45,403 bases of DNA. Source: Clostridia bacterium (GTDB taxonomy: Bacteria > Bacillota > Clostridia > Peptostreptococcales > JAAYPU01). Below the pieces are notes generated by a model, which saw nothing but the letters and a program-made list of their open reading frames with translations, had not been told where the DNA came from and made no database searches. This document shows positions 19,233 to 38,547 of this stretch, piece by piece. How positions within the stretch are numbered: the first letter of the stretch is position 1; every line of letters begins with the position of its first letter. Where the stretch lies: assembly GCA_016278615.1 (NCBI GenBank), contig JADQBM010000023.1:1-45403 (forward strand), read 5' to 3'. The translations under genes were made by a program, and so were the position numbers.

Positions 19233-19616
19233 TTAATATTTGTTGTATATCCTATACAAAAATACTGCTGCTTCTGCTCTTGTTGTATTACTCAGTGGAT
19301 TGATTTTATTATCCGATCCTTTTATCAAACCTTCATCCATTAGTCTCGCTATACTAGCAGTTGCATAGGATGATATAAGATTCTTGTCAGCAAATGTATC
19401 GAGAATAGAAGTATCGATTTCTTTATCAACTATGCCTTTTATTTCTAATGCCCGATTGGTTAAAGTCATCATTTCCTGTCTTGTTATATAGTCAGCTGGA
19501 TGGAAATTATTCTTCCCATCTCCTGTTGTTATTCCCAATGCCTTCGCAATACCCACTGCATCATAATAATAGGTATTTTTACTGACATCTTCAAAATTAG
19601 ATTTAAAAATTACCAA
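19233..19616 (-). pseudogene. SLH-domain surface protein, C-terminal fragment
   Basis: These 127 codons encode two S-layer homology repeats (SNFEDVSKNTYYYDAVGIAK and DTFADKNLISSYATASIARL with TRAEAAVFLYRIY). Normally three such repeats anchor a protein to pyruvylated cell-wall polymer. The preceding frame ends KSFKDLGNF, the beginning of a first SLH repeat, and then stops. About 50 residues of that repeat are missing at the junction near 19603-19616, with a frame change. This piece is therefore not an independent gene but the tail of the protein encoded from 22474. Confidence 0.78.
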
Positions 19617-21594
19617 GATCCTTAAATGACTTCTCTACGTATGCTACTGCATATATACTGAAATGTGTTGTGCTAAATGATACAAATCCTGTCTCAGTGT
19701 CATATCGACCATTTGGAACACTGACAATATTGCCTTCTCCATCTATATACCATACAGTGATATGTTCAGGATTTTCTAATTCCTCAGCTGTAGGTGTATA
19801 GGGTATGGATACCGTGACAGGTGAATCAGGATTGTTCCATTGGATGGTATCGCCATCTACCTGAATACTTAATTCAATGACCGGTTTATCACCTATTTCT
19901 GCTCTTAGTTTCTGGCTTAGGGTCATTGGGTCTACAGTATTGAAGGCTAATGTTACCTCACTGCCATTGATATTTTCCAGCATATTACCGGGAAATTGAA
20001 TGCTTCCAATATCCGTCTTGAATTCAAGATCAGGATTGCCCTCAGATTCCAGAGCATTTAAAGGAAGATTTATTTCATAGTTGTCTGTTCCTTTTTTAGA
20101 TATATCAAAGTATAACCATCTATTGCCTTCTTTATCAGTTACTACCCGATCTAACACATTGTCATAAGCATCAGATGATAATTTCGCAATGATTCTATCT
20201 GATTTTTCTGTGATAATGATATCTAAGTCCCCATCTTTGGCACTTTCACTTGAACCCCCACGATTTGAACCGCCGCTGCCGGAATTGTCGGTACTGTCCG
20301 GATCAATATTAATTTCAGCAGACAAATACTCAGTAGCCCAATGATTTAATAAATCAGAGCAATATACATCTATATAATAGTAGTCATATGGCAAATCATT
20401 AAAGGTATATGTCGTATCATTGGTATAGACATATTCATAAAAACTATAACCACTCGTATAAATCTCAGCGTAATACTTTGTACCAGAAGGGTCCTGTGCT
20501 GGTGCCCATGAAAGGGTAATAGCAGCTGTTGTTCTTTCCGTATCATAGGTCACACTGTTAACCACTAATGCGGCATCTGCATCCCACACAGGAGGATTAT
20601 TATCGATTTCCGCTAAAGTACTTACTGTTTTTTCTAACGAAGCACTTTCATTATCAGCTCTATCTACTGCTATTACGCTGAATTCGTATGGCGTTTCATA
20701 TGATAAATCAGTAACAGTATATGCCCTTACATCGGCAAGAACTGTATGGATTTGACTGATACCTTGATATATTTGATATTCCTTTATAAGATTGTCATCA
20801 GAAGCTTCCGGCCATAACAATTCCACAGAATCATCTGACGGTACAGCTGTTAATACCGCATCAATCGGCCATTCCGGCAGTATATCATCTGTGTCCCCAT
20901 CATTAATTATGATAGTAGTGGTACTATTTGCTCTAAGGGTTGCATTATTTGTTGGATTAGAAAGTGAAAGTTCAATGGTATCATATTCTGCAGCCGTATC
21001 GTCTATAAGAGGTATGGTAATCGTTTCTTCTGTATCGCCTTCAATAAAAGTCAGGGTCCCGTCAGCGAGGGTATAGTCATCACCATTTACAGCTGTACCG
21101 CCTGTCACAGCATAATCCACTGTGACTGTACCATCCGAGCCGGAGCCTATTCTTTCAACTACTATATCTATAGAGCCATCTTCTTCAAGTACACTATATT
21201 CAGTACTTTCAAACTGAAGCTCTCCAGGAATAAAGCTTACTGCGACAAACATATCATAACCTCTTATTAAAACAATATCCTCATAAGAATCTTCGTCAAA
21301 ATCAAAGGGATAAATCTTCTTATAATCATTTAAATACCCCCCACTTATCAAGCTCATCATCGTCGCAGGGCTTTGGAAAGTGCCATCACCATTTCCTGTT
21401 AATAAAGCAAGATAATACACACTATCTTCTTTATTCATAATCACGATATCTTTATTGCCATCACGATTATAATCTATAGGACATAAATAAAGTAGGCTAT
21501 CCAGACGAACATTAGATATCAATGTAGACTCCGGTTCAGAAAAAGTAAAATCACCTTCCCCTAAAGCAACATAAGAAAAAGATCTGTAGCCCAC
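19603..21594 (-). pseudogene. Calx-beta / fibronectin-III surface protein, middle fragment
   Basis: This 663-codon open frame has FG-GAP repeats at the start (CPIDYNRDGNKDIVIMNKED), a Calx-beta domain at ~130-225 (GTAVNGDDYTLADGTLTF), two FN3-like domains at ~235-325 and ~330-410, a Gly/Ser-rich linker (GSGGSNRGGSSE), and a DUF4073-like region before STTHFSIYAVAYVEKSFKDL. It has no signal peptide of its own. The upstream frame ends 59 bp before its first Met, and the sequence between still encodes FNGDGNEDIAYYGEE, so a single indel near 21655 separates it from its N-terminal part. The surface location and adhesive or cell-wall role are inferred from the domains. Confidence 0.8.
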
Positions 21595-21652
21595 GCTACC
21601 ATAAATCTCCTCCCCATAATAAGCTATATCTTCGTTCCCATCTCCATTAAAG

Positions 21653-22474
21653 TCATATCACTAAGATAATTTCTACACCCATTTTGCAATTTACATCTTG
21701 TACAGATGTAAAGGTCCCTGCTCCATCGTTTTCGAAAATTTTGATACCATCTGTATATTGATGTAATACAATATCCATATCCCCGTCATGATCTAAATCA
21801 GCAGTCTCAACAGACTGTGCATAGGAAATATCATCTGTTATATTTGCCGTTAATGTAAATGTACCATCACCTTTGCCTAAACCATCATCATTACCTATAA
21901 ATATTGCTAAACTGCCACTAATACTACCAGAACCATAACATGCAACTGCTAAATCCAATATACCATCTCCATTAAGATCCGCAGGTGCAAAAGATTTCGG
22001 AAAAGAAATATCTGAACTGCCTTGTACGGAAGATGGTCTGGTAAACCCTCCATTGCCATCCCCTAAGTATACAAATACGTTACCATAAGACTCATTATAT
22101 CCTGCAGCATTGCTGCCATAAACAAAATCCATATGGCCGTCGTTGTTGAAATCAGCAGCCATAATACCTCTTCCCGAGAAAGAGGCAACTATTTCACTTG
22201 AATCAAATGTGCCATCGCTGTTTCCTTTCATTAGATATACGCTATTATTAGTTTTACATACAATCATGTCCATATAGCCGTCTTCATCAAAGTCTGCAAA
22301 ATCGATTGAGTCTACATTTCCTCCGCCCAATCCGTATACATTACCATCTTTGAAATAATTCTCTGCAAACACTTGATTGGCTGAAAATAATAAAACAATT
22401 AAGAAAGTACACATTGCAATTTTTTTTGATACAAAAGTTCTTCTTTTTAGCATTCCTGATAATTCAATAAACAC
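21653..22474 (-). pseudogene. FG-GAP/VCBS repeat surface protein, N-terminal fragment
   Basis: The 273-codon frame begins with a signal peptide (MCTFLIVLLFSANQVFAENY after a basic stretch). Four or five FG-GAP/VCBS repeats follow, each with a calcium-loop pattern such as DFDEDGYMDMIV, DFNNDGHMDFVYG, DLNGDGILDLAVA and DLDHDGDMDIVLH. These build a beta-propeller in secreted proteins. The frame breaks at its end and is continued by the next fragment. Together the three fragments (22474 to 19233) would make a ~1060-residue secreted, SLH-anchored protein. No homologue of the break is visible in the second SLH protein at the right edge of the window. Confidence 0.8.
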
Positions 22475-22641: not shown

Positions 22642-23281
<640 letters not shown>

Positions 23282-23581
23282 TTAGCAGCATCCACTATCG
23301 TTGCCACCTGAACAGTCGCAGCTGGGTTCACTTCGTGTAATCCAACCCATTATGACTGCATAAGCACAACCAACTCCCTGCTTTACCTCTATTGCATTTA
23401 ATGGGCAGTTCTTTGCACATGCACCGCATTCCATGCATCCATCCTTATCTAAGATTTCAGCTTTTCTTTCTTTAATGCTAAAGACATGATGGGGACAAAC
23501 TTCTATACATCTACCACACCCAGTACATTTTTCGGTATTTAGAATCAACGTTGAGACATCTTTCAAATATCTATTTTTCAT
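23282..23581 (-). CDS. hgcB: Mercury methylation ferredoxin HgcB
   Basis: A 99-residue 2[4Fe-4S] ferredoxin. The two cluster motifs CTGCGRCIEVCP and CMECGACAKNCP are complete. The segment GVGCAYAVIMGWITRSE carries the extra conserved Cys, and the chain ends in vicinal cysteines (SGCC), both as in HgcB. HgcB is thought to reduce the corrinoid of HgcA and to pass Hg(II) through its cysteines during formation of methylmercury. AAGGAGG precedes the ATG, and the gene begins 12 bp after hgcA, as in known hgcAB pairs. Confidence 0.93.
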   Translation of the reverse strand: MKNRYLKDVSTLILNTEKCTGCGRCIEVCPHHVFSIKERKAEILDKDGCMECGACAKNCPLNAIEVKQGVGCAYAVIMGWITRSEPSCDCSGGNDSGCC

Positions 23582-23592
23582 TAAGTTCCTCC

Positions 23593-24750
23593 TTAAATCC
23601 CCATAAAGCTATTAAGTAAAATTAGTAACATCCCCAAGCTTACTGTAATAATAATTATAGGAACTGCTATTTTCATTTCTTTTATAACACCGGACGATGA
23701 AGTATATGTTGAAGCACCTGTAAAGTTCATTGCATAAAAAGAAGATATGGAAGACAAAACCAATAAATATCCAATTGCTCTAACTAAACTGTATGAAGGC
23801 AATTGCGGCCATCCATTTATCAAATTAACCACAACAGCCCATATAAAACCTAATAACCAACCCTTCCATGCAAAAGCCCTTCCCGGAATCCAAGGCAGTA
23901 ACACTGGAGTGATCACACAACCGATTATTAAGGCACCCACATATGCATAAAAATCGTCTAATCCAAAAGGTATTGTAACAATAAGATTCAAAAGAAAAAG
24001 TATTCCAAAAGCAATTATAGAAACCTTAATCGCTTCTACCAACTCTATTGGCGTTAAAACCAATCGGTCATATGTAGTAAACTTGACTGTACGCATTTCT
24101 GGAGTTGCTGTCATGTCCCTACGGATAAATTCTTTGATATCTTTAGCTCTTACAGGTCCATAAACCACTTGAAATCCAGTTTGCCGAGAAGCCTCATGAG
24201 CACTTAATCCAGGCGCCCCCAATTGTGGCAAGATTAAAGTTCTTTGTGTTACAATCTCGTGAAGCTTAGTGCAACTTATACGTGTTAGTAATTCCTTTGT
24301 GCCAAAGGTCCCTTTTCCTGCAGCACACCAAACATTAATGCCCTTGGTATCAAGCACTAAAATCCATGTATTTATGTCCGCCAGTTCCTTTCTTAATGAA
24401 TCAAAGGTCGATTTGTAGTTGGCAGTTACTAATACGGGTGATTCATTATCAGGAGTCCCTACAGCATAGAGCCCAGGGTTAATTTTATAATTCATTCTGT
24501 TTACTCCCCAGCGTGCTTTCCATGAACCTAATATATCACTAAAGTTCAGTTGGGTAGATACCACCGGTACTACGCCTTTCGGAGTGTTAATGACACCTTG
24601 AATCCATTTTTCGTTTCCCGCATATTCAACTAATATCTCTGAGGAGCCGCATCCACTATTGCTTGAACAGCATGTTCTTTTTACTTCATTCCCATTTTCT
24701 ATCATTGTCATCATCCCCACGTCTTTACTTGCAACAGTCATTTTACCCAA
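23593..24750 (-). CDS. hgcA: Mercury methylation corrinoid protein HgcA
   Basis: The protein of up to 385 residues has the diagnostic cap-helix motif NVWCAAGKGTFG with the cobalt-coordinating Cys at ~142. The corrinoid-binding domain spans ~45-235, and then there are about five membrane segments (for example VSIIAFGILFLLNLIVTIPF and the final VPIIIITVSLGMLLILLNSF). It transfers a methyl group from a methyl donor pathway to Hg(II) at the inner membrane. An N-terminal stretch EVKRTCCSSNSGC is also typical. The exact start is uncertain: several ATG codons lie between 24739 and 24700, and no strong ribosome site picks one. It forms an operon with hgcB. Confidence 0.93.
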   Translation of the reverse strand: MGKMTVASKDVGMMTMIENGNEVKRTCCSSNSGCGSSEILVEYAGNEKWIQGVINTPKGVVPVVSTQLNFSDILGSWKARWGVNRMNYKINPGLYAVGTPDNESPVLVTANYKSTFDSLRKELADINTWILVLDTKGINVWCAAGKGTFGTKELLTRISCTKLHEIVTQRTLILPQLGAPGLSAHEASRQTGFQVVYGPVRAKDIKEFIRRDMTATPEMRTVKFTTYDRLVLTPIELVEAIKVSIIAFGILFLLNLIVTIPFGLDDFYAYVGALIIGCVITPVLLPWIPGRAFAWKGWLLGFIWAVVVNLINGWPQLPSYSLVRAIGYLLVLSSISSFYAMNFTGASTYTSSSGVIKEMKIAVPIIIITVSLGMLLILLNSFMGI

Positions 24751-24953
24751 TCGCTATAAGCAGTATTTGAAGGCTATGTAATTAATTATACAGTACTGTC
24801 CCTGTTCTGTTAATTCCAAAATCACATAGTTTAGAATGTCCTTTCAACATCTTATCACGAACGTGCTTTTTTTATCAAAACTACTTAGCGGCAGAGGTCC
24901 GATAATCAATCAACATGCCGCTTTTTCACCCTTTTTTTCTCTAAGCTTAACTC

Positions 24954-25601
24954 TTAAATATGGCGAAAGGTCCCAATCCTATTTAGAGCAGTTTGGTTCA
25001 TATAGGTATAAAGAAGCTCCATATACCCATTTACAGTTTCAGGATTAACCGATAGATGATCACCTGGTACAGCTGGCAGTGCATCTGCTTCTGCTTGGAT
25101 AGATATAGTTTTACCGGGCTCCACATAACGCCCTTTAGGGATTTTCACTCCTCCTGTAATATTAGCGCCATGCATAATCACACAATCTGGACTTATTTCC
25201 GCATCGAAAATGGAAACGTGCTGGCCAATGAAGGTGTTCTTTCCCACTCTGCAGGGACCATGGACTGCAGATCCATGGAGAATACTGACCTCACCATCAA
25301 TATGAACAGACCATTTATAGGCACCCACCTTTACATATTGATTAGGTTGCCCATGTATTAAGCAGTGATCATGAATGCTGGTCCCAGGACCAATAAAAAA
25401 AGGACTCCCATAATCAGCACGAATAATGTTGTGAAAACCAATGAATACAGGCCCTTTAATGGTAACATCCCCAACAACTGCACTGCCAGGTCCCACAAAA
25501 ACATCAGAAGAGATTTTGGGATAGGTAGAGTAGTTGATATGGGATGTAATAGGATTATAAGTGATTATTGAATTATTATAATTCTGTTTTGTAGTATGCA
25601 T
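24954..25601 (-). CDS. Gamma-carbonic-anhydrase-like hexapeptide-repeat protein
   Basis: The 215-residue protein is a left-handed beta-helix of the gamma-carbonic-anhydrase/LbH family, as shown by repeated hexapeptide steps (FVGPGSAVVGDVTIKGPVFIG). The family's RAD motif is in NIIRADYGSP. Histidines suited to zinc binding occur in HDHCLIHGQ, SILHGSAVHGP and VIMHGANI. It may hydrate CO2 or act on another small molecule, as many relatives do. GGAGG precedes the ATG. It lies 200 bp upstream of hgcA, with the same orientation but no clear functional link. The gap 24751-24953 shows no feature. Confidence 0.8.
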   Translation of the reverse strand: MHTTKQNYNNSIITYNPITSHINYSTYPKISSDVFVGPGSAVVGDVTIKGPVFIGFHNIIRADYGSPFFIGPGTSIHDHCLIHGQPNQYVKVGAYKWSVHIDGEVSILHGSAVHGPCRVGKNTFIGQHVSIFDAEISPDCVIMHGANITGGVKIPKGRYVEPGKTISIQAEADALPAVPGDHLSVNPETVNGYMELLYTYMNQTALNRIGTFRHI

Positions 25602-30654: not shown

Positions 30655-32568
30655 TCAAGTTTCCCTATAATGATTTCCTGGTTTTCGAACATCATCTTCT
30701 CTCCGAGTCATTTCAATCCTATCTAGGAATTCCAATAGAGCAATTGTTGCTTTTCTTCCAACACCCAAGTGATCTCTTATTTGGCCGACAGTTGCCGCAC
30801 CTTGTTCATCTAAAAGATATCTGATTTGTTGGATATAGCTTGAAAGAACCTCATGATGAATCATCAGACCTTCTCCTAAATCCACTAACCTTCCTATTTG
30901 CTTTAGGAATTGAATCACATCTATTAGCTTCTTTTCATCTATAATCAAATTCTTCCCCAGTTGCTGAATATTATTAATATTCAACCCTTCTTTTAAATAA
31001 GCATTCTCCAAAGCAATGGTTTCTTTTCTGGCAAGAATGTTGTTAACCACAGATGGTTCATACTGGGTAAGAATATTTCCTTCTATTTTGAAAAGTTCAT
31101 CACAGACAAAGCGGTTCAGTAGTGCAGCAAAATCCTTTGTATCAATATTCATGAAGACCTTGCTTTTTATTTCTTCCTTATCCAATTGATACCTAAATGG
31201 ATATTTCTTGTATAACTGCTCAAATGTCTCATTTATTTTTTTATAAAAATTATTATAAAGCCCTTTACTTAAGAACTTATTGACTTCTGCTAACCACAAC
31301 ACATCCTCCTTTACAGGTTCAGTGGTTAATATCCTATGTATTTCTTCTCTTTCAACATAAAGTTCTTTCCACAGATCTTCAATGCTTAATATTTTTTCGG
31401 TATTATTCAGTGTATAAAGTATTAATTCCTCAAGGCTACCGGACTCACCTATTTTCATGGCTTCTTCACTTTCCTCAGAAAACCTTTTACGATTTTGTGT
31501 TCTATGAAAAAGAATCCAACCGCCGCCTATGGTTGTAACAGGGGAAAAGGATCTTATAATAAAGCGGTCCTTTCGGATCACTGTGAAAGGCTCCTCAAAC
31601 TTAAGTTGTATATACCCTTTATTTCCACCGGCAATCTTATCTTCTCCAATAATTTTGACTCTGGCAAGACCTTCCTTTGTTCCTGTATGAATATGAACAC
31701 GTTGGTTATGTACCACATTTTTTTTACCTTTAACCGTATAAAGAACCGCATCTGTAATCCGCGTAGGTGTGATAGCTCCTGAGTCTGATATGACATCGCC
31801 TCTTCTAATAACTTCCTTATTTATACCAGACAGATTGAGTGCACACCTTTCTCCGGCGCCTGCGCTGTTGACACTTTTGTTATGTACCTGTATGCCTCTG
31901 ACCCGAGCGGATACCCTTTGAGGTAAAAGTGATACTTCTTGGTCTTTGGATACGCACCCTCCATAAACAGTCCCCGTAATAACGGTTCCATGCCCTGTCA
32001 TGGTAAAAACACGATCAACTGGTAATCGAAACAAGCTTGCAGCTTTCTTTTTAGACACAACCTGCGATAGTTCTTCAAGTCTTTCTATTAGTTCATGGAT
32101 GCCCTGTCCTGTAACAGAAGAGACTGGAACAACAGGCATGCCCTCCATTGTCGTTCCTTTCAATGTATCAAGGATGTCTCCCTTCACCATCTGTAGCCAT
32201 TCATTTTCAACAAGATCCGTTTTCGTTAAAGCGACGATTCCCTTTTGCACATTAAGGAAAGACAGTATATCAATATGCTCCTGAGTCTGTGGCATAACGC
32301 CTTCATCTGCTGCCACCACTAACATAACAAAATCAATTCCAGTCGCTCCTGCTACCATGGATTTAATAAATTTCTCGTGTCCTGGTACATCCACTATGGA
32401 TATCACATTTCCAGAAGGCAGGGTCAGTGGTGCAAATCCTAACTCAATGGTCATGCCTCTTTGCTTTTCCTCCTTGAGTCTGTCCGTATCCATTCCTGTC
32501 AATCGTTTTACAAGTGCCGTTTTCCCATGATCAATATGTCCTGCCGTTCCCATTACAACATGTTTCAT
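30655..32568 (-). CDS. selB: Selenocysteine-specific elongation factor SelB
   Basis: A 637-residue GTPase that carries Sec-tRNA to the ribosome at UGA codons next to a SECIS hairpin. G1 is GTAGHIDHGKTALVK, G3 is DVPGHEKF and G4 is TKTD, all near the N-terminus. EF-Tu-like domains 2 and 3 follow to ~345. The long C-terminal part (~400-637) is the winged-helix array that binds SECIS RNA, ending with ATVGQIRDHLGVGRKATIAL. Its start overlaps the selA stop by four bases, indicating translational coupling. Downstream is a HesB-like selenoprotein gene. Confidence 0.96.
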   Translation of the reverse strand: MKHVVMGTAGHIDHGKTALVKRLTGMDTDRLKEEKQRGMTIELGFAPLTLPSGNVISIVDVPGHEKFIKSMVAGATGIDFVMLVVAADEGVMPQTQEHIDILSFLNVQKGIVALTKTDLVENEWLQMVKGDILDTLKGTTMEGMPVVPVSSVTGQGIHELIERLEELSQVVSKKKAASLFRLPVDRVFTMTGHGTVITGTVYGGCVSKDQEVSLLPQRVSARVRGIQVHNKSVNSAGAGERCALNLSGINKEVIRRGDVISDSGAITPTRITDAVLYTVKGKKNVVHNQRVHIHTGTKEGLARVKIIGEDKIAGGNKGYIQLKFEEPFTVIRKDRFIIRSFSPVTTIGGGWILFHRTQNRKRFSEESEEAMKIGESGSLEELILYTLNNTEKILSIEDLWKELYVEREEIHRILTTEPVKEDVLWLAEVNKFLSKGLYNNFYKKINETFEQLYKKYPFRYQLDKEEIKSKVFMNIDTKDFAALLNRFVCDELFKIEGNILTQYEPSVVNNILARKETIALENAYLKEGLNINNIQQLGKNLIIDEKKLIDVIQFLKQIGRLVDLGEGLMIHHEVLSSYIQQIRYLLDEQGAATVGQIRDHLGVGRKATIALLEFLDRIEMTRREDDVRKPGNHYRET

Positions 32569-33992
32569 AGCAATACTCCTTTAATGGCTTCAATCACCAA
32601 CGGATACTCTTTGGTTGTAAGTGTTCGGACGTTTATCAAAACCCTGTCTTTATGGATTCTGCAAATAACAGGGATCTCCGCTTGTCTGAGTTTTTCCTGA
32701 AAGACATTGACACTTAAATCCCTTGGTACCAATGCCACTGCTTTGCCTTTTAGGATTACTCCGGGAAGTGATCCTCCACCGATTTCATCTAAGTCATCCA
32801 CGATTTCTGTTATAATTCTTCCTTCAAATATGGAATTTATTAATTCATTAAGCTCCAGCGCTTTGTCATAAAGTTCACTTTCTTTCAGCGCCATCATTTT
32901 TAAAACGGGGATTTTTTCCACGACATTTTTGGAATTCATATAAAGGTCTAAAACCGACGTCATGGCCATAATCGTTGTCTTATCACACCGAACGATACGT
33001 GCCAGAGGATTTTTCTTTATCCTATCCATCCATTTCTTTTTTCCCGCAATAATACCTGCCTGGGGGCCTCCTAAAAGCTTATCTCCACTAAAAGTAACCA
33101 GATCGACACCCTTTTGGATGCTTTCCTGGACTGTAGGTTCATAGGGTAACCCTATAAGAGAAAGATCATACAAACTCCCACTCCCTAAATCTTCAACAAC
33201 TGGAACATGATTTTCTTCACCCAAAGCCACCAACTCCTGCAAGGATACCTGGTGGCAAAATCCTGTCACTTTATAGTTACTGGTATGCACTTTTAAAAGA
33301 ATGGCTGTTTCATCCGTAATGGAATCAGAATAATCGGACAAATGTGTTTTATTGGTGGTGCCCACCTCCACCATTTTTGCCTCACTTCTTGAGATGATAT
33401 CCGGTATCCTGAAGCTTCCACCTATTTCAACCTGTTGGCCTCTAGATACAATGACTTCTTTATTTCCTGCAAGGGTATTTAGACATAAAAAAACAGCTGC
33501 AGCATTGTTATTGACAATCATCGCGCTCTCAGCTCCAGTAAGGTGCATAATCTGTTCCTCAATACGAGAAGATCTTAACCCCCTTGTGCCAGTTTCCATG
33601 TCAAATTCAAGATTACTGTAGCCTTCACAAATCCTTTGAATAGAATCAGCAGCCTGTTTTGGAAAAGGCGCTCTGCCCAGGTTGGTATGCAGCACAATCC
33701 CAGTTGCATTAATCACTTTTTTCAATTCATTGCTATGCTGTTTTGCTATTAGTTTATCCAACATTTTAATGAGGTATTTTGAAACGTAATCTCTTGTAGG
33801 ATTATGAAGCCTTGGGTCCACTGACTCATTGGTATCAATTTCCTTCCGGTACGCATCCATAACAAGTTGAATATTCTTTATAACATAGTCTCTTCCAAAC
33901 TGTTCTATTAACATTATGACCTGAGGACACTCAAGAATTTCATGAACAGGTGGAATCAACTTTAAAGCCTTCTGTTTATCAAGTACATCCAT
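32565..33992 (-). CDS. selA: L-seryl-tRNA(Sec) selenium transferase SelA
   Basis: The 475-residue PLP enzyme converts seryl-tRNA(Sec) to selenocysteinyl-tRNA(Sec) using selenophosphate. The PLP lysine is in TFSGDKLLGGPQAG. Other family segments are NATGIVLHTNLGRAPFP, GSGSLYDLSLIGLP and the N-terminal PPVHEILECPQ that binds tRNA(Sec). The length is typical. It lies 59 bp downstream of the tRNA(Sec) gene and overlaps selB. selD (selenophosphate synthetase) is not in the window and must be elsewhere. Confidence 0.96.
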   Translation of the reverse strand: MDVLDKQKALKLIPPVHEILECPQVIMLIEQFGRDYVIKNIQLVMDAYRKEIDTNESVDPRLHNPTRDYVSKYLIKMLDKLIAKQHSNELKKVINATGIVLHTNLGRAPFPKQAADSIQRICEGYSNLEFDMETGTRGLRSSRIEEQIMHLTGAESAMIVNNNAAAVFLCLNTLAGNKEVIVSRGQQVEIGGSFRIPDIISRSEAKMVEVGTTNKTHLSDYSDSITDETAILLKVHTSNYKVTGFCHQVSLQELVALGEENHVPVVEDLGSGSLYDLSLIGLPYEPTVQESIQKGVDLVTFSGDKLLGGPQAGIIAGKKKWMDRIKKNPLARIVRCDKTTIMAMTSVLDLYMNSKNVVEKIPVLKMMALKESELYDKALELNELINSIFEGRIITEIVDDLDEIGGGSLPGVILKGKAVALVPRDLSVNVFQEKLRQAEIPVICRIHKDRVLINVRTLTTKEYPLVIEAIKGVLL

Positions 33993-34050
33993 ATATTTCT
34001 TCCCTTCATTAAAAATCCAATACCCATTCTCCTGTTCTTAATTTTTATAT

Positions 34051-34147
34051 TGGCGGAAACGTGTAGGAGTCGAACCCACCTCGGCTGGTATTACCACCCG
34101 ACTACGGATTTGAAGTCCGAGGAATCCACCGGGACCCATCCGCTTCC
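34051..34147 (-). tRNA. selC: tRNA-Sec (anticodon TCA)
   Basis: The 97-nt minus-strand gene begins GGAAGCGGATGGGT and ends with an encoded CCA after discriminator G. The acceptor arms GGAAGCG/CGTTTCC pair with one G·U. The anticodon loop CTTCAAA contains TCA between GGA and TCC. The T arm has GGTTCGACTCC. A long variable arm (GTCGGGTGGTAATACCAGCCGAGGT region) gives the large size typical of tRNA(Sec). Clustering with selA and selB confirms the assignment. Confidence 0.95.
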
Positions 34148-35244: not shown

Positions 35245-36365
35245 ATGGATTTAATAAATTTCACAATTAGTAGCGAGTAAGTTATCACGGCTAATATAAT
35301 GCTGAAATAGTTAAGCGCTGCCAGATATGAATTCTGAATGTACAAACCTTGTACATATGTTCCCAAAACTTGGGAGCCCACAAGCGCTCAGACCATGCCC
35401 CATTGAGTCGCAGAATAGTTGCTTTTTAGGAACTGGTTCTTAAAATAATATCCCAGTAAAAAAACAGTAGAAGCTACCCAAACAATAGCAATCGCATATG
35501 AAAAATTCATTATAATGGACGAACTTCTACTGAGGTCAATTGATAAAACTGTCTGAAAATATGACGCCAGTCTAAATAAGCTTAACCCAAATAAACAGGT
35601 GATTGGAACAACCAAAAAGAATGCTGGTAAAATCGGAGCATCTGGTAATTTTCTTACTTTTATTTGAGCGATTATCAAATGCACTAATTTAACAGCAAGC
35701 ATAGAAAGTCCAATAAGTATTGTAAGTGCTGTGCCGATTACGGCAAATCCTACAATTTGTGTATTTTCTGAAGTAATTGCGATACCCGATCCTGTTAAAC
35801 TAACCAAACCAAATGCAAATACATCCAGTAACCAGACAAAATTGAATTTGTCAATATCAACTGATTTTGTAAACCAAACTTTAATAACCCTCCATTCAAG
35901 GGCAAATAAAGCACTCCATAATACCACAAAATAAATCAATGAAGGCATCATCAAAGACTGTAACCCCGCAGAAATTTGCGGAACAAAAAAACCAACCGGT
36001 GCCCATAAAACGTTAGCAGACATTGCCAATGAACCTATAATAGGAAAAATAGTCATATTTTTATATGGGTCATTCATTAATTCCGTTGCTAATTTCTTGT
36101 TTGAGAGCCACCCTATCAACCCTTTTAGAAAAATTACGGTTAAAGCAATATGCGCAATTATGGAGATAAACATAATCCCAACCAAAGTGCCATAAAGCAC
36201 CATTTGCGTTGCACTTAGGCTGGCCCAAACTATATCAGAAAATTTAATGAGTCCTTTACCATGGTGTATTGCAAACTGCAAAAAATTAAAAGGCATGAGA
36301 GCGACTCCTCCAGCAGCCAATGCCCCCTGAAAAAAAAGAGGATTAAACTGGTTATTCAACTTCAT
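35226..36365 (-). CDS. Multi-pass membrane selenoprotein (TsoY-like)
   Basis: The open frame from 36365 meets TGA at 35388-35390, but the same frame continues for 53 more residues (ALVGSQVLGTYVQGLYIQNS and a last membrane helix) to TAA. The full product is 379 residues with Sec at 326 in TQWGMV-U-ALVGS. About ten membrane helices are visible, and without the extension the last helix would be lost. The sequence resembles the family I remember as TsoY family (seleno)protein. The ATG follows GGGAGG. It is the last gene after arsR, CGGC, cysteine desulfurase and DsrE-like genes, so membrane transport or redox handling of sulfur/selenium species is likely (inference). Confidence 0.85.
35348..35384 (-). 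promoter_or_regulatory. Candidate bacterial SECIS hairpin
   Basis: On the minus strand, beginning three bases after the TGA, CTTGT...ACAAG forms an outer stem. TCCCAA-GTT-TTGGGA forms an apical stem with a G/U loop. The apical stem starts 12 bases after the UGA, close to the spacing required for bacterial SelB recognition. Confidence 0.7.
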
Positions 36366-36378
36366 ATACAACCCTCCC

Positions 36379-36699
36379 TTAAAATGTTATTGTTTTATCT
36401 GCCCACTCGACCATTTCAATACAATCTATCATTGTATTCATAGGACAAACTTCTGTTCCACCCATAGTTCTTGATTTCAAACAAGTTCCACAAGCAAGGA
36501 TTTCACCATCTATTTCATGGAAGGCTTTAACCTGAGCAGCGACATCAAACTTTTCATGGGTAAGGTTTTCAATCTCTACAGCTTCACCCATAAGAAACAC
36601 TTTGATCTCATGACCAGACTTCTTAGCAGTCACAGCAAATCTCATTGCGTTCCAGGCTTTTTCATATTCCTTTGTTTCAATAATTATTCCAAGTTTCAT
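36379..36699 (-). CDS. DsrE-family sulfur-relay protein
   Basis: A 106-residue DsrE/DsrF-like protein. It starts KLGIIIETKEYEKAWNAMRF and has KVFLMGEAVEIE. A Cys-rich segment ILACGTCLKSRTMGGTEVCP includes the Cys position that carries persulfide in the DsrE family, in a CxxC arrangement. It may accept sulfur from the cysteine desulfurase encoded just upstream and pass it to the membrane selenoprotein encoded just downstream (13 bp). Those transfers are inferred from order only. Confidence 0.82.
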   Translation of the reverse strand: MKLGIIIETKEYEKAWNAMRFAVTAKKSGHEIKVFLMGEAVEIENLTHEKFDVAAQVKAFHEIDGEILACGTCLKSRTMGGTEVCPMNTMIDCIEMVEWADKTITF

Positions 36700-36720
36700 T
36701 TCAATTCCTCCAATCGGTTA

Positions 36721-37839
36721 TTATTTATCAAGTATGATTTTATTTAGATTAATCATTACAGTCTCTATTTCTTCCTTGGTTGTATACCTTCCAAGGCTAA
36801 ACCTCACCCCCCCTCGTCCTACCTCTTCAGTCACTCCCATGGCCTTTAAAACTGGGGATATGGACGTCATTCCAGAATGACATGCAGATCCTGTTGAAGC
36901 GGCTATCCCTTTCAGTTGATTTAACACTTCATGGCCATTAAGCCCAACAAAACTTACATTGAGGGTGTTAGGAAGCCTCTTTTTAAGATGTCCATTTAAT
37001 ACAACCCCATCTCCAAAGTTTTTCTTAAGCCTACTATAAAAATAGTCTGTTATTTCCTTGATTTTTAGGCTTTTGAGAGCCTCTACTGAAATCTCACATG
37101 CCTTACCTAGTCCCACCTCAAGAATTATGTTTTCAGTACCTGCTCGTCTTCCACTTTCATGGCCTGCTCCATGAATCAATGGCTCAATTTGGATTCCATC
37201 TCGTATATATAATGCGCCAATTCCTTTTGGTGCATATAATTTATGTCCAGCCACTGTAAGAAAATCCACGTCAAGTTTTTTCACATCTATGGGAACTTTG
37301 CCTATGGACTGTGATGCATCGGTATGAAATAAAATAGGATGCTTATGACATACTTTTGAGATTGCTTCAATGGGCTGGATTGTACCCGTTTCATTGTTTG
37401 AATGCATAATTGTCACCAGGATCGTCTGATCAGTAATTAATCTTTCGATATCCGAGGGACTCACCATTCCATATTGGTCAACTGGAACATAGCTTATTTC
37501 ATATCCAAGTCTCTCCAAATATTTACATGGATTGATAATTGCAGGATGTTCTATTTGTGAGGTAATGATATGATTACCCTTATTTTTGTGTGTATGCGCC
37601 ACGCCTTTAAGAACAGTGTTGTTGGATTCACTTCCGCCACTTGTAAATACTATTTCATCTGATACACAATTTAGTAATTGTGCTACCTGGCTTCTTGCAT
37701 GTTCTATAGCACTCTTTGCTGTAGCCCCTAAAACGTGACTACTGGATGGATTCCCAAAGTAACTATAAAGATAGGGAAGCATTGTATCTGCAACTTCTTT
37801 GTCTATAGGAGTTGTTGCATTATAGTCAAGATAAATCAT
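36721..37839 (-). CDS. Cysteine desulfurase, NifS/IscS class
   Basis: The 372-residue PLP enzyme removes sulfur (or selenium) from cysteine (or selenocysteine) and holds it as a persulfide. The N-terminal motif MIYLDYNATTPID, the PLP-contacting HTDASQS, the lysine in TVAGHKLYAPKG and the active-site loop SACHSG with the catalytic Cys are all present. I chose ATG 37839, which follows CAGGAGTG; an upstream in-frame start would overlap the CGGC gene. No IscU-like scaffold gene is present. Its place between CGGC and DsrE genes suggests a dedicated sulfur or selenium supply rather than general Fe-S assembly. Confidence 0.92.
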   Translation of the reverse strand: MIYLDYNATTPIDKEVADTMLPYLYSYFGNPSSSHVLGATAKSAIEHARSQVAQLLNCVSDEIVFTSGGSESNNTVLKGVAHTHKNKGNHIITSQIEHPAIINPCKYLERLGYEISYVPVDQYGMVSPSDIERLITDQTILVTIMHSNNETGTIQPIEAISKVCHKHPILFHTDASQSIGKVPIDVKKLDVDFLTVAGHKLYAPKGIGALYIRDGIQIEPLIHGAGHESGRRAGTENIILEVGLGKACEISVEALKSLKIKEITDYFYSRLKKNFGDGVVLNGHLKKRLPNTLNVSFVGLNGHEVLNQLKGIAASTGSACHSGMTSISPVLKAMGVTEEVGRGGVRFSLGRYTTKEEIETVMINLNKIILDK

Positions 37840-37864
37840 ATACTTCACTCCTGTTTGCAATATT

Positions 37865-38197
37865 TTAGTGTGTGTAATCAATTATATTAATTGATTTTCC
37901 AATTTTCTTTTCTATGGCCGATTTCATTTGTTCTGCATGAGGGCAAGCAAATCCAATAGGATTCCCTCTTGTGATACATGAAGCAAGGACAATGGTGTCC
38001 GCTCCACGCTTAACCATCTCAACTGCCCTTGTTACAGCTTTTTTACCGGGACATCCCCCGCAGGTGTTTACTCCCACTACCTCAATATCTTCTTCAATTC
38101 CTTCAAATGCCAATTTTTTTGTGTTCATAACCTTAAAACAAGTTGTTGCAGGACACATATCCTCTGTCTGCATACATCTGATTAATCCAACTTTCAT
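37865..38197 (-). CDS. CGGC-domain protein
   Basis: The 110-residue protein carries the CGGC domain: MKVGLIRCMQTEDMCPATTC and the eponymous NTCGGCPGKKAV, plus LASCITRGNPIGFACPHAE. It has seven or eight cysteines, consistent with metal or sulfur binding. The family has no established function, though some members are selenoproteins. It is the second gene of this operon, between arsR and the cysteine desulfurase. GAGGG precedes the ATG. Confidence 0.88.
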   Translation of the reverse strand: MKVGLIRCMQTEDMCPATTCFKVMNTKKLAFEGIEEDIEVVGVNTCGGCPGKKAVTRAVEMVKRGADTIVLASCITRGNPIGFACPHAEQMKSAIEKKIGKSINIIDYTH

Positions 38198-38220
38198 AAA
38201 AATACCCTCATTTCTCTAAT

Positions 38221-38547
38221 CTATTTTATTGATCTTACCATATCAAATTTCTTCTCCATTTGTTCTACCATGGCCTCTCTCATAATAATGCATGCTTGAA
38301 GGGTTTTGGGATTTGCAATTCTATAGTACATTTTAGTACCCTCACGCCTTACTTCAACCACACCTTTTTCACGCATCACTGCTAAATGCTGAGATACATT
38401 GGGAACTTTGACTTCCATTGCTGATGCAATTTCATCCACGCAAATTTCTTTTTCCCCCAATAAAAACAAAATTTCTATTCTTTTGGCGTTAGCCATAAAT
38501 TTACAAAATTCCGCATGGAGTTCATATAATTCTTTCTGATTTTTCAT
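38221..38547 (-). CDS. ArsR-family transcriptional regulator
   Basis: The 108-residue winged-helix repressor has the recognition helix region VKVPNVSQHLAVMREKGVVE and a beta-hairpin RREGTKMYYRIA. It lacks the ELCVC metal motif of ArsR/CadC. Instead there are single cysteines in EICVDEI (~36) and LQACIIM (~86), reminiscent of the two-cysteine persulfide sensors BigR/SqrR. It is the first gene of the operon with CGGC, desulfurase, DsrE and the membrane selenoprotein and presumably controls it. A palindrome lies ~46 bp upstream of its start. Confidence 0.88.
   Translation of the reverse strand: MKNQKELYELHAEFCKFMANAKRIEILFLLGEKEICVDEIASAMEVKVPNVSQHLAVMREKGVVEVRREGTKMYYRIANPKTLQACIIMREAMVEQMEKKFDMVRSIK

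Follow-up and report, generated by a model that had tools for sequence, protein, structure and literature searches.

An intact, probably laterally acquired hgcAB pair in a Clostridia bacterium, with a possible extra thiol arm on HgcA

The window, a 45,403-nt stretch of DNA (contig JADQBM010000023.1) from a Clostridia bacterium of the order Peptostreptococcales, contains an intact, probably laterally acquired hgcAB pair that would work by the known mechanism of mercury methylation, with a possible extra N-terminal thiol arm on HgcA. The probability of this overall reading is put at about 0.92. Judged from its sequence, the pair is predicted to make methylmercury, which adds one more lineage to the predicted producers, its genome being without a detected CFeSP/AcsE route. 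Carriage of hgcAB predicts methylation and is no demonstration of it: in the portion of PMC5893877 available, 8 of 9 methanogens with hgcAB methylated mercury. The two genes and the parts of HgcA are located as follows.

23593–24750, minus strand: hgcA, membrane corrinoid methyltransferase (NF040863 score, genome-wide match, fold match to 9a0b)
24301–24336, minus strand: cap-helix motif NVWCAAGKGTFG, residues 139-150, with the presumed cobalt ligand Cys142 (sequence and alignment)
24112–24489, minus strand: segment of hgcA matched by phmmer to 4djd_C and 2h9a_A, by PF03599 and by Foldseek
23602–24075, minus strand: membrane domain of five helices, residues 226-257, 264-283, 293-311, 322-347 and 352-383 (hydropathy and AlphaFold2 model)
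23282–23581, minus strand: hgcB, 2[4Fe-4S] ferredoxin of 99 aa (NF040864 score and sequence)

HgcA covers the NCBI-curated equivalog profile NF040863 from end to end (positions 1-325 of 325) at 490.7 bits (E 1.9e-147, cut-off 275), and is the single HgcA match at E <= 0.001 in the host genome. The first-pass annotation had recognized the protein by its cap-helix motif and five membrane helices, and both hold: NVWCAAGKGTFG agrees with the family signature N(V/I)WCAAGKG, its strictly conserved cysteine being present in the given sequence as Cys142, and a C-terminal domain of five helices is predicted from hydropathy and by AlphaFold2. Across 25 aligned HgcA proteins N139, V140, W141 and C142 are invariant. 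In two Clostridium loci (L052 and L054) the cap helix reads NVWCAASKGTF(G/S), Ser replacing the usual Gly.

The hgcA open reading frame encodes 385 aa from a TTG or 370 aa from an ATG at 24705. The latter gives MIENGNEVKRTCC, in which the spacing from Met to CC resembles that of relatives (e.g. MSNEKSCCC in L015); on this comparison the ATG is the likelier true start.

The AlphaFold2 model, built from 25 aligned HgcA (mean pLDDT 72.9, pTM 0.61), combines an alpha/beta domain with five long helices over residues 226-383; its pLDDT drops below 50 in three stretches, residues 1-37, 138-147 (the cap-helix region) and 348-350. Its best Foldseek match in the PDB is the published HgcAB model 9a0b (E 9.3e-20, 41% identity over the fold alignment), which we take to represent strain ND132 (Pseudodesulfovibrio mercurii by its present name). 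TM-scores of 0.49 and 0.55 with an rmsd of 7.2 imply that the overall domain placement differs between the two models. Both systems possess a corrinoid domain with a cap-helix Cys, five membrane helices and a dicluster HgcB with an extra Cys and a terminal CC. The window pair differs in the additional C88 and C90 of the HgcB tail and, as a putative further difference, has an N-terminal HgcA tail with CC...C.

A corrinoid domain is common to HgcA and to proteins of the CFeSP/CdhD type, and the gene might on that ground encode one of these, or a relative of the HgcAB-like fusion proteins, with another methyl acceptor. CdhD is alone over cut-off in Pfam (PF03599, corrinoid domain, 51.2 bits, residues 89-208), and the fusion model NF043039 (HgcAB_like) gives 193.2 bits for HgcA and 58.9 for HgcB. 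These fusion scores, however, lie below the cut-off of 285, and the window holds two separate genes. The CFeSP gamma-subunit model PRK04165 likewise stays at 72.7 bits against a cut-off of 306, and the next Foldseek matches after 9a0b are CFeSP large subunits at E 2.5e-6 and weaker. HMM scores, the check that the first-pass annotation had proposed, together with the fold search thus set HgcA apart from CFeSP. The CFeSP large subunit (AcsC) and CdhD share the fold of the corrinoid-binding domain at 24-27% identity. They are not known to have an HgcA-like membrane domain, and they serve a different methyl acceptor. Unlike window HgcA, they also have no Cys at the cap-helix position, according to the part of PMC7305189 available. 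Against the equivalog score, the adjoining separate hgcB, the membrane domain and the cap-helix Cys, a protein other than true HgcA is very improbable.

The next gene had been described as an HgcB-type 2[4Fe-4S] ferredoxin, which the curated NF040864 profile bears out (135.3 bits, E 4.9e-40, cut-off 99). The protein holds two CxxCxxCxxxCP motifs, CTGCGRCIEVCP and CMECGACAKNCP, the extra Cys of HgcB as Cys72 in GVGC, and tail cysteines at 88, 90, 98 and 99, the last two forming the terminal CC. hgcB lies directly beside hgcA, with its own AAGGAGG Shine-Dalgarno sequence and an ATG 11 nt after the hgcA stop. Both frames are whole, as the first pass had it, and an hgcB-like frame adjoins hgcA in 85 of 94 related loci. 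On one contig of Acetivibrio mesophilus there are two hgcA copies ~107 kb apart (L015:8001-9032 and L021:8001-9026), each followed by an hgcB-like frame. A 15-nt stretch of the HgcB tail (23284-23298) is 93% alike to one of the HgcA tail (24645-24659), both coding SGC; this probably reflects convergence of Cys/Ser/Gly-rich tails.

The claim that hgcAB is sparse in Clostridia holds for the host's order, where the HgcA cut-off is passed by 15 of 393 sampled genomes (host counted; the 393 were drawn from a larger group). HgcA was found in neither of two other genomes of the host's family examined. No 16S rRNA gene turned up in the host assembly. For comparison, 98 rows (related loci, designated L) matched HgcA; leaving out L001, L082 and L090 (window copies) and L033 (a fragment) gives the 94 rows of a maximum-likelihood tree of HgcA only. 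In this tree window HgcA stands beside Pseudobacteroides, with Pelotomaculum and Ruminiclostridium next nearest by path; the Pseudobacteroides branch is weak (support 87/73), and every set of at most half the rows that contains the window lacks good support. HgcA of Pseudobacteroides cellulosolvens (L008), a Pelotomaculum MAG (L004) and a Ruminiclostridium MAG (L062) is 68-73% identical to the window protein and shares the CC of its N-terminal tail. In contrast to the whole hgcB of the window, the frame is broken in the P. cellulosolvens record (L008:8980-9293), and in the Pelotomaculum MAG the end of hgcA runs directly into an HgcB-like tail with most of hgcB missing (L004:2200-2400); these defects are either record errors or real damage. 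Clostridium liquoris DSM 100320 (L005), another close carrier, has both frames whole. A literature search returned nothing on HgcA together with Bacillota and MAG, or on P. cellulosolvens together with mercury.

Besides the window, the host's order supplies 14 HgcA: ten are set apart by a branch distant from the window (98/90), and the remaining four fall in two further places. Vertical inheritance within the order, with loss in most lineages, would explain why other members of the order have HgcA, and multiple losses are hard to exclude; yet AU tests reject trees in which the window is constrained to join all 14 (p 4.1e-5) or to pair with L093 (p 0.005), and the two other family genomes are without HgcA. 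Vertical descent is accordingly unlikely. From the tree and the AU tests, a gain of hgcAB by lateral transfer is the likely history, with other clostridia as the probable source. This agrees with the spread of hgcAB by lateral transfer described in the accessible part of PMC7438021. Carriage of HgcA on plasmids was considered and dropped, as 72,556 plasmid records held no match.

By analogy, we infer that the window pair follows the core HgcAB steps reported or proposed for other organisms. The two [4Fe-4S] clusters of HgcB would reduce the HgcA-bound corrinoid to Co(I), and SAM would methylate this corrinoid, whose cobalt would have Cys142 as lower ligand. HgcB Cys72 and the terminal Cys pair would handle thiol-bound Hg(II), the acceptor of the methyl group, so that CH3Hg+ forms; the flexible N-terminal tail of HgcA, with C27-C28, may offer Hg(II) or CH3Hg+ a second thiol arm. 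In the portion of PMC11588087 available, the methyl donor to the cobalamin of purified HgcAB is reported to be SAM and not methyl-THF, the methylcobalamin has a Cys thiolate as its lower ligand, and HgcB relays electrons; the roles of Cys93, Cys73 and Cys94/95 are taken from PMC7305189, likewise available in part.

In the host genome searched (3.5 Mb, 99% completeness), PF03599 matches HgcA and, marginally, the inside of an 844-aa frame; the same frame gives the one match of PF00809 (pterin-binding), and we take it for a methionine synthase of the MetH type. The CFeSP/AcsE route was once thought to supply HgcA. Searches of the host genome with PF03599 and PF00809 turned up neither a CFeSP nor a separate AcsE-type methyltransferase. 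As the two profiles match only HgcA and the 844-aa frame, a methyl-THF/CFeSP route is unlikely, and the absence of CFeSP and AcsE from the assembly lends weak support to SAM as methyl donor, which it fits (PMC11588087, in its accessible part). PF07685 proved unspecific as a marker of de novo corrinoid synthesis, matching all 14 controls, and cobQ was used instead, which reached 20.7 bits against a cut-off of 309.9 in the host. On this check, confined to cobQ and the unspecific PF07685, holo-HgcA may depend on salvaged corrinoid.

The possible extra arm centres on one feature of the HgcA tail.

24667–24672, minus strand: Cys27-Cys28 of HgcA, vicinal cysteines (TGC TGT) within the disordered N-terminal tail (sequence, tail counts, pLDDT)

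The tail contains C27, C28 and C34, and its blocks have a pLDDT of 25-44 in the AlphaFold2 model. The NF040863 match starts at residue 61, so the tail lies outside the curated family model. Cysteine accounts for 228 of 2955 residues in the tails and for 250 of 29917 outside them (70 rows). Among the 94 HgcA rows, at least 47 tails carry CC, nine Cys-UGA, four other Cys and 20 no Cys, while 14 are unreadable by the Met rule; six of these (L002, L005, L040, L062, L069, L078) have CC when a Met is not required, so that 47 is a lower bound (53 by the laxer count). The pair is absent in 24 of 80 labelled rows, rows of Desulfosporosinus among them, and the tree requires at least 12 changes between presence and absence. 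The pair is therefore not essential to the family.

A row was counted as Cys-UGA when a UGA comes in frame after a Cys and a start codon lies upstream; ten rows fit this rule, and nine remain after L030, which has no hairpin, was dropped. Eight come from the host's order (L084, L098-L104) and the ninth is L079. The protein continues past the UGA in conserved form in L102-L104 (DVDVKAS or DVNVKAS). A SECIS-like hairpin that begins 18-21 nt from the UGA and has GU in its loop occurs at 8 of 9 HgcA sites and 435 of 2897 control codons; the rule was framed after the HgcA UGA sites had been viewed and the sites are related, so the 8 of 9 is no independent test. The exception is L079, where the stretch past the UGA folds strongly. 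In HgcB, a UGA stands at the Cys73 place (Cys72 in the window), after GVG and with a conserved continuation, in seven relatives (L079, L083, L097-L101), and the hairpin rule picks up none of these seven sites. Among 20 HgcA-bearing genomes of our own choosing, SelB is over cut-off in all 11 with a UGA in hgcA or hgcB and in 5 of the 9 others, the host being one of the five. These patterns suggest that the tail Cys-UGA of the nine HgcA rows is probably Cys-Sec and that the UGA of the seven hgcB genes probably codes Sec. The window CC then looks like the Cys version of a site filled by Cys-Sec in relatives.

Haft and Gwadz (2023) is reportedly the published source of the HgcA 'CU' and HgcB 'GVGU' selenoproteins. 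These belong to the same two families as the window pair and are listed as selenoproteins, citing Haft and Gwadz 2023, in the portion of PMC13188914 available. In relatives the UGA sits at the HgcA tail Cys pair and at HgcB Cys72. The window is not of the selenoprotein form: in contrast to the 'CU' and 'GVGU' forms it has Cys codons at both places (TGC TGT in HgcA; Cys72 in the open hgcB frame), even though selA, selB and tRNA-Sec lie within 10 kb.

The flexible CC arm of HgcA, Cys-Sec in others of the host's order, might constitute a second mercury-handling device opposite the C-terminal arm of HgcB, delivering Hg(II) or removing CH3Hg+, to which we give slightly less than even odds. PMC7305189, the HgcAB structure paper, discusses the HgcB tail cysteines, and the HgcA tail cysteines are absent from the portion of its text available. 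A literature search, whose reach excluded Haft and Gwadz 2023, found no paper joining HgcA, N-terminal, cysteine-rich and mercury methylation. The Cys form of the tail and a possible joint role with the HgcB tail may thus be undescribed, whereas the selenoprotein part is already known. If the tail reading is true, the route of Hg(II) to the corrinoid, open in the published mechanism, becomes testable by Cys replacements, and selenium supply could affect methylation in some clostridia.

The surroundings of the pair include the following.

24785–24813, minus strand: promoter-like TTAACA-17-TATAAT upstream of hgcA, a consensus match alone (11/12 matches)
24954–25601, minus strand: hexapeptide-repeat, gamma-carbonic-anhydrase-like gene upstream of hgcA (profile searches)
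22642–23016, minus strand: C-terminal part of a decayed 2-oxoacid:ferredoxin oxidoreductase beta-subunit gene, immediately downstream of hgcB (PF12367, partial NF008820)
30655–34147: cluster of selB, selA and tRNA-Sec, ~6 kb from hgcAB

The promoter call is weak: the region has 17 sites of this kind, and shuffled sequence averages 13.0. Between the -35 and -10 elements lies the palindrome ACAGTACTGT, which was considered as an operator and rejected as chance. It occurs twice in the window (0.02 expected), these two being the genome total, and the second copy falls within a frame of 106 aa, FeoA-like by eye, next to feoB; its reversed control pattern occurs four times in the genome, and none of 94 other hgcA upstream regions (up to 300 nt each) contains it. 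Related hgcA loci compared gave no SelA or SelB matches, so the nearness of the sel cluster to hgcAB looks accidental.

The upstream part of the oxidoreductase remnant lies in other frames, and the host genome has no other match to this subunit. A functional link with hgcAB was rejected for want of a counterpart in the related loci compared, leaving a decayed neighbour.

No arsR adjoins hgcA, as had been stated; this is correct for the neighbourhood, but an ArsR-family gene does lie ~13.5 kb off at 38221-38547. An ArsR-like gene within 4 kb of hgcA occurs in at least 53 of 94 related loci (52 of 95 rows by clustering, one cluster member checked by Pfam), both counts being lower bounds because flanks are short in many loci. 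Among the eight best-matching loci, arsR is, by the rule applied, directly upstream of hgcA in five (L002, L005, L006, L008, L062), those of P. cellulosolvens and the Ruminiclostridium MAG among them; L003 has an ArsR match that overlaps the hgcA frame and is unclassed, L007 has one 2.3 kb downstream, and L004 has no ArsR-like gene in its 5.85 kb. The window thus truly differs from most of its closest kin.

This missing regulator, the cobQ result and the decayed gene next door would suit a true hgcAB pair left silent or inactive in the host, e.g. short of corrinoid or of its usual regulator. Set against this are the intact frames, the retained catalytic cysteines, the good Shine-Dalgarno sequence ahead of hgcB and the 844-aa frame, which points to corrinoid use by the cell if it encodes, as we take it, a methionine synthase of corrinoid type. 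A silent pair is therefore improbable, and a working one is preferred.

Farther off in the window are a metal-sensitive repressor (PF02583), the ArsR-family gene and feoB. At 19233-22474, FG-GAP, Calx-beta and fn3 surface-type proteins are spread across adjacent frames, possibly one broken gene. A one-strand run at 35388-38547 comprises the ArsR regulator, a CGGC-domain protein, a class-V aminotransferase, DsrE and a SLAC1-type channel, and is perhaps a metal or sulfur stress operon.
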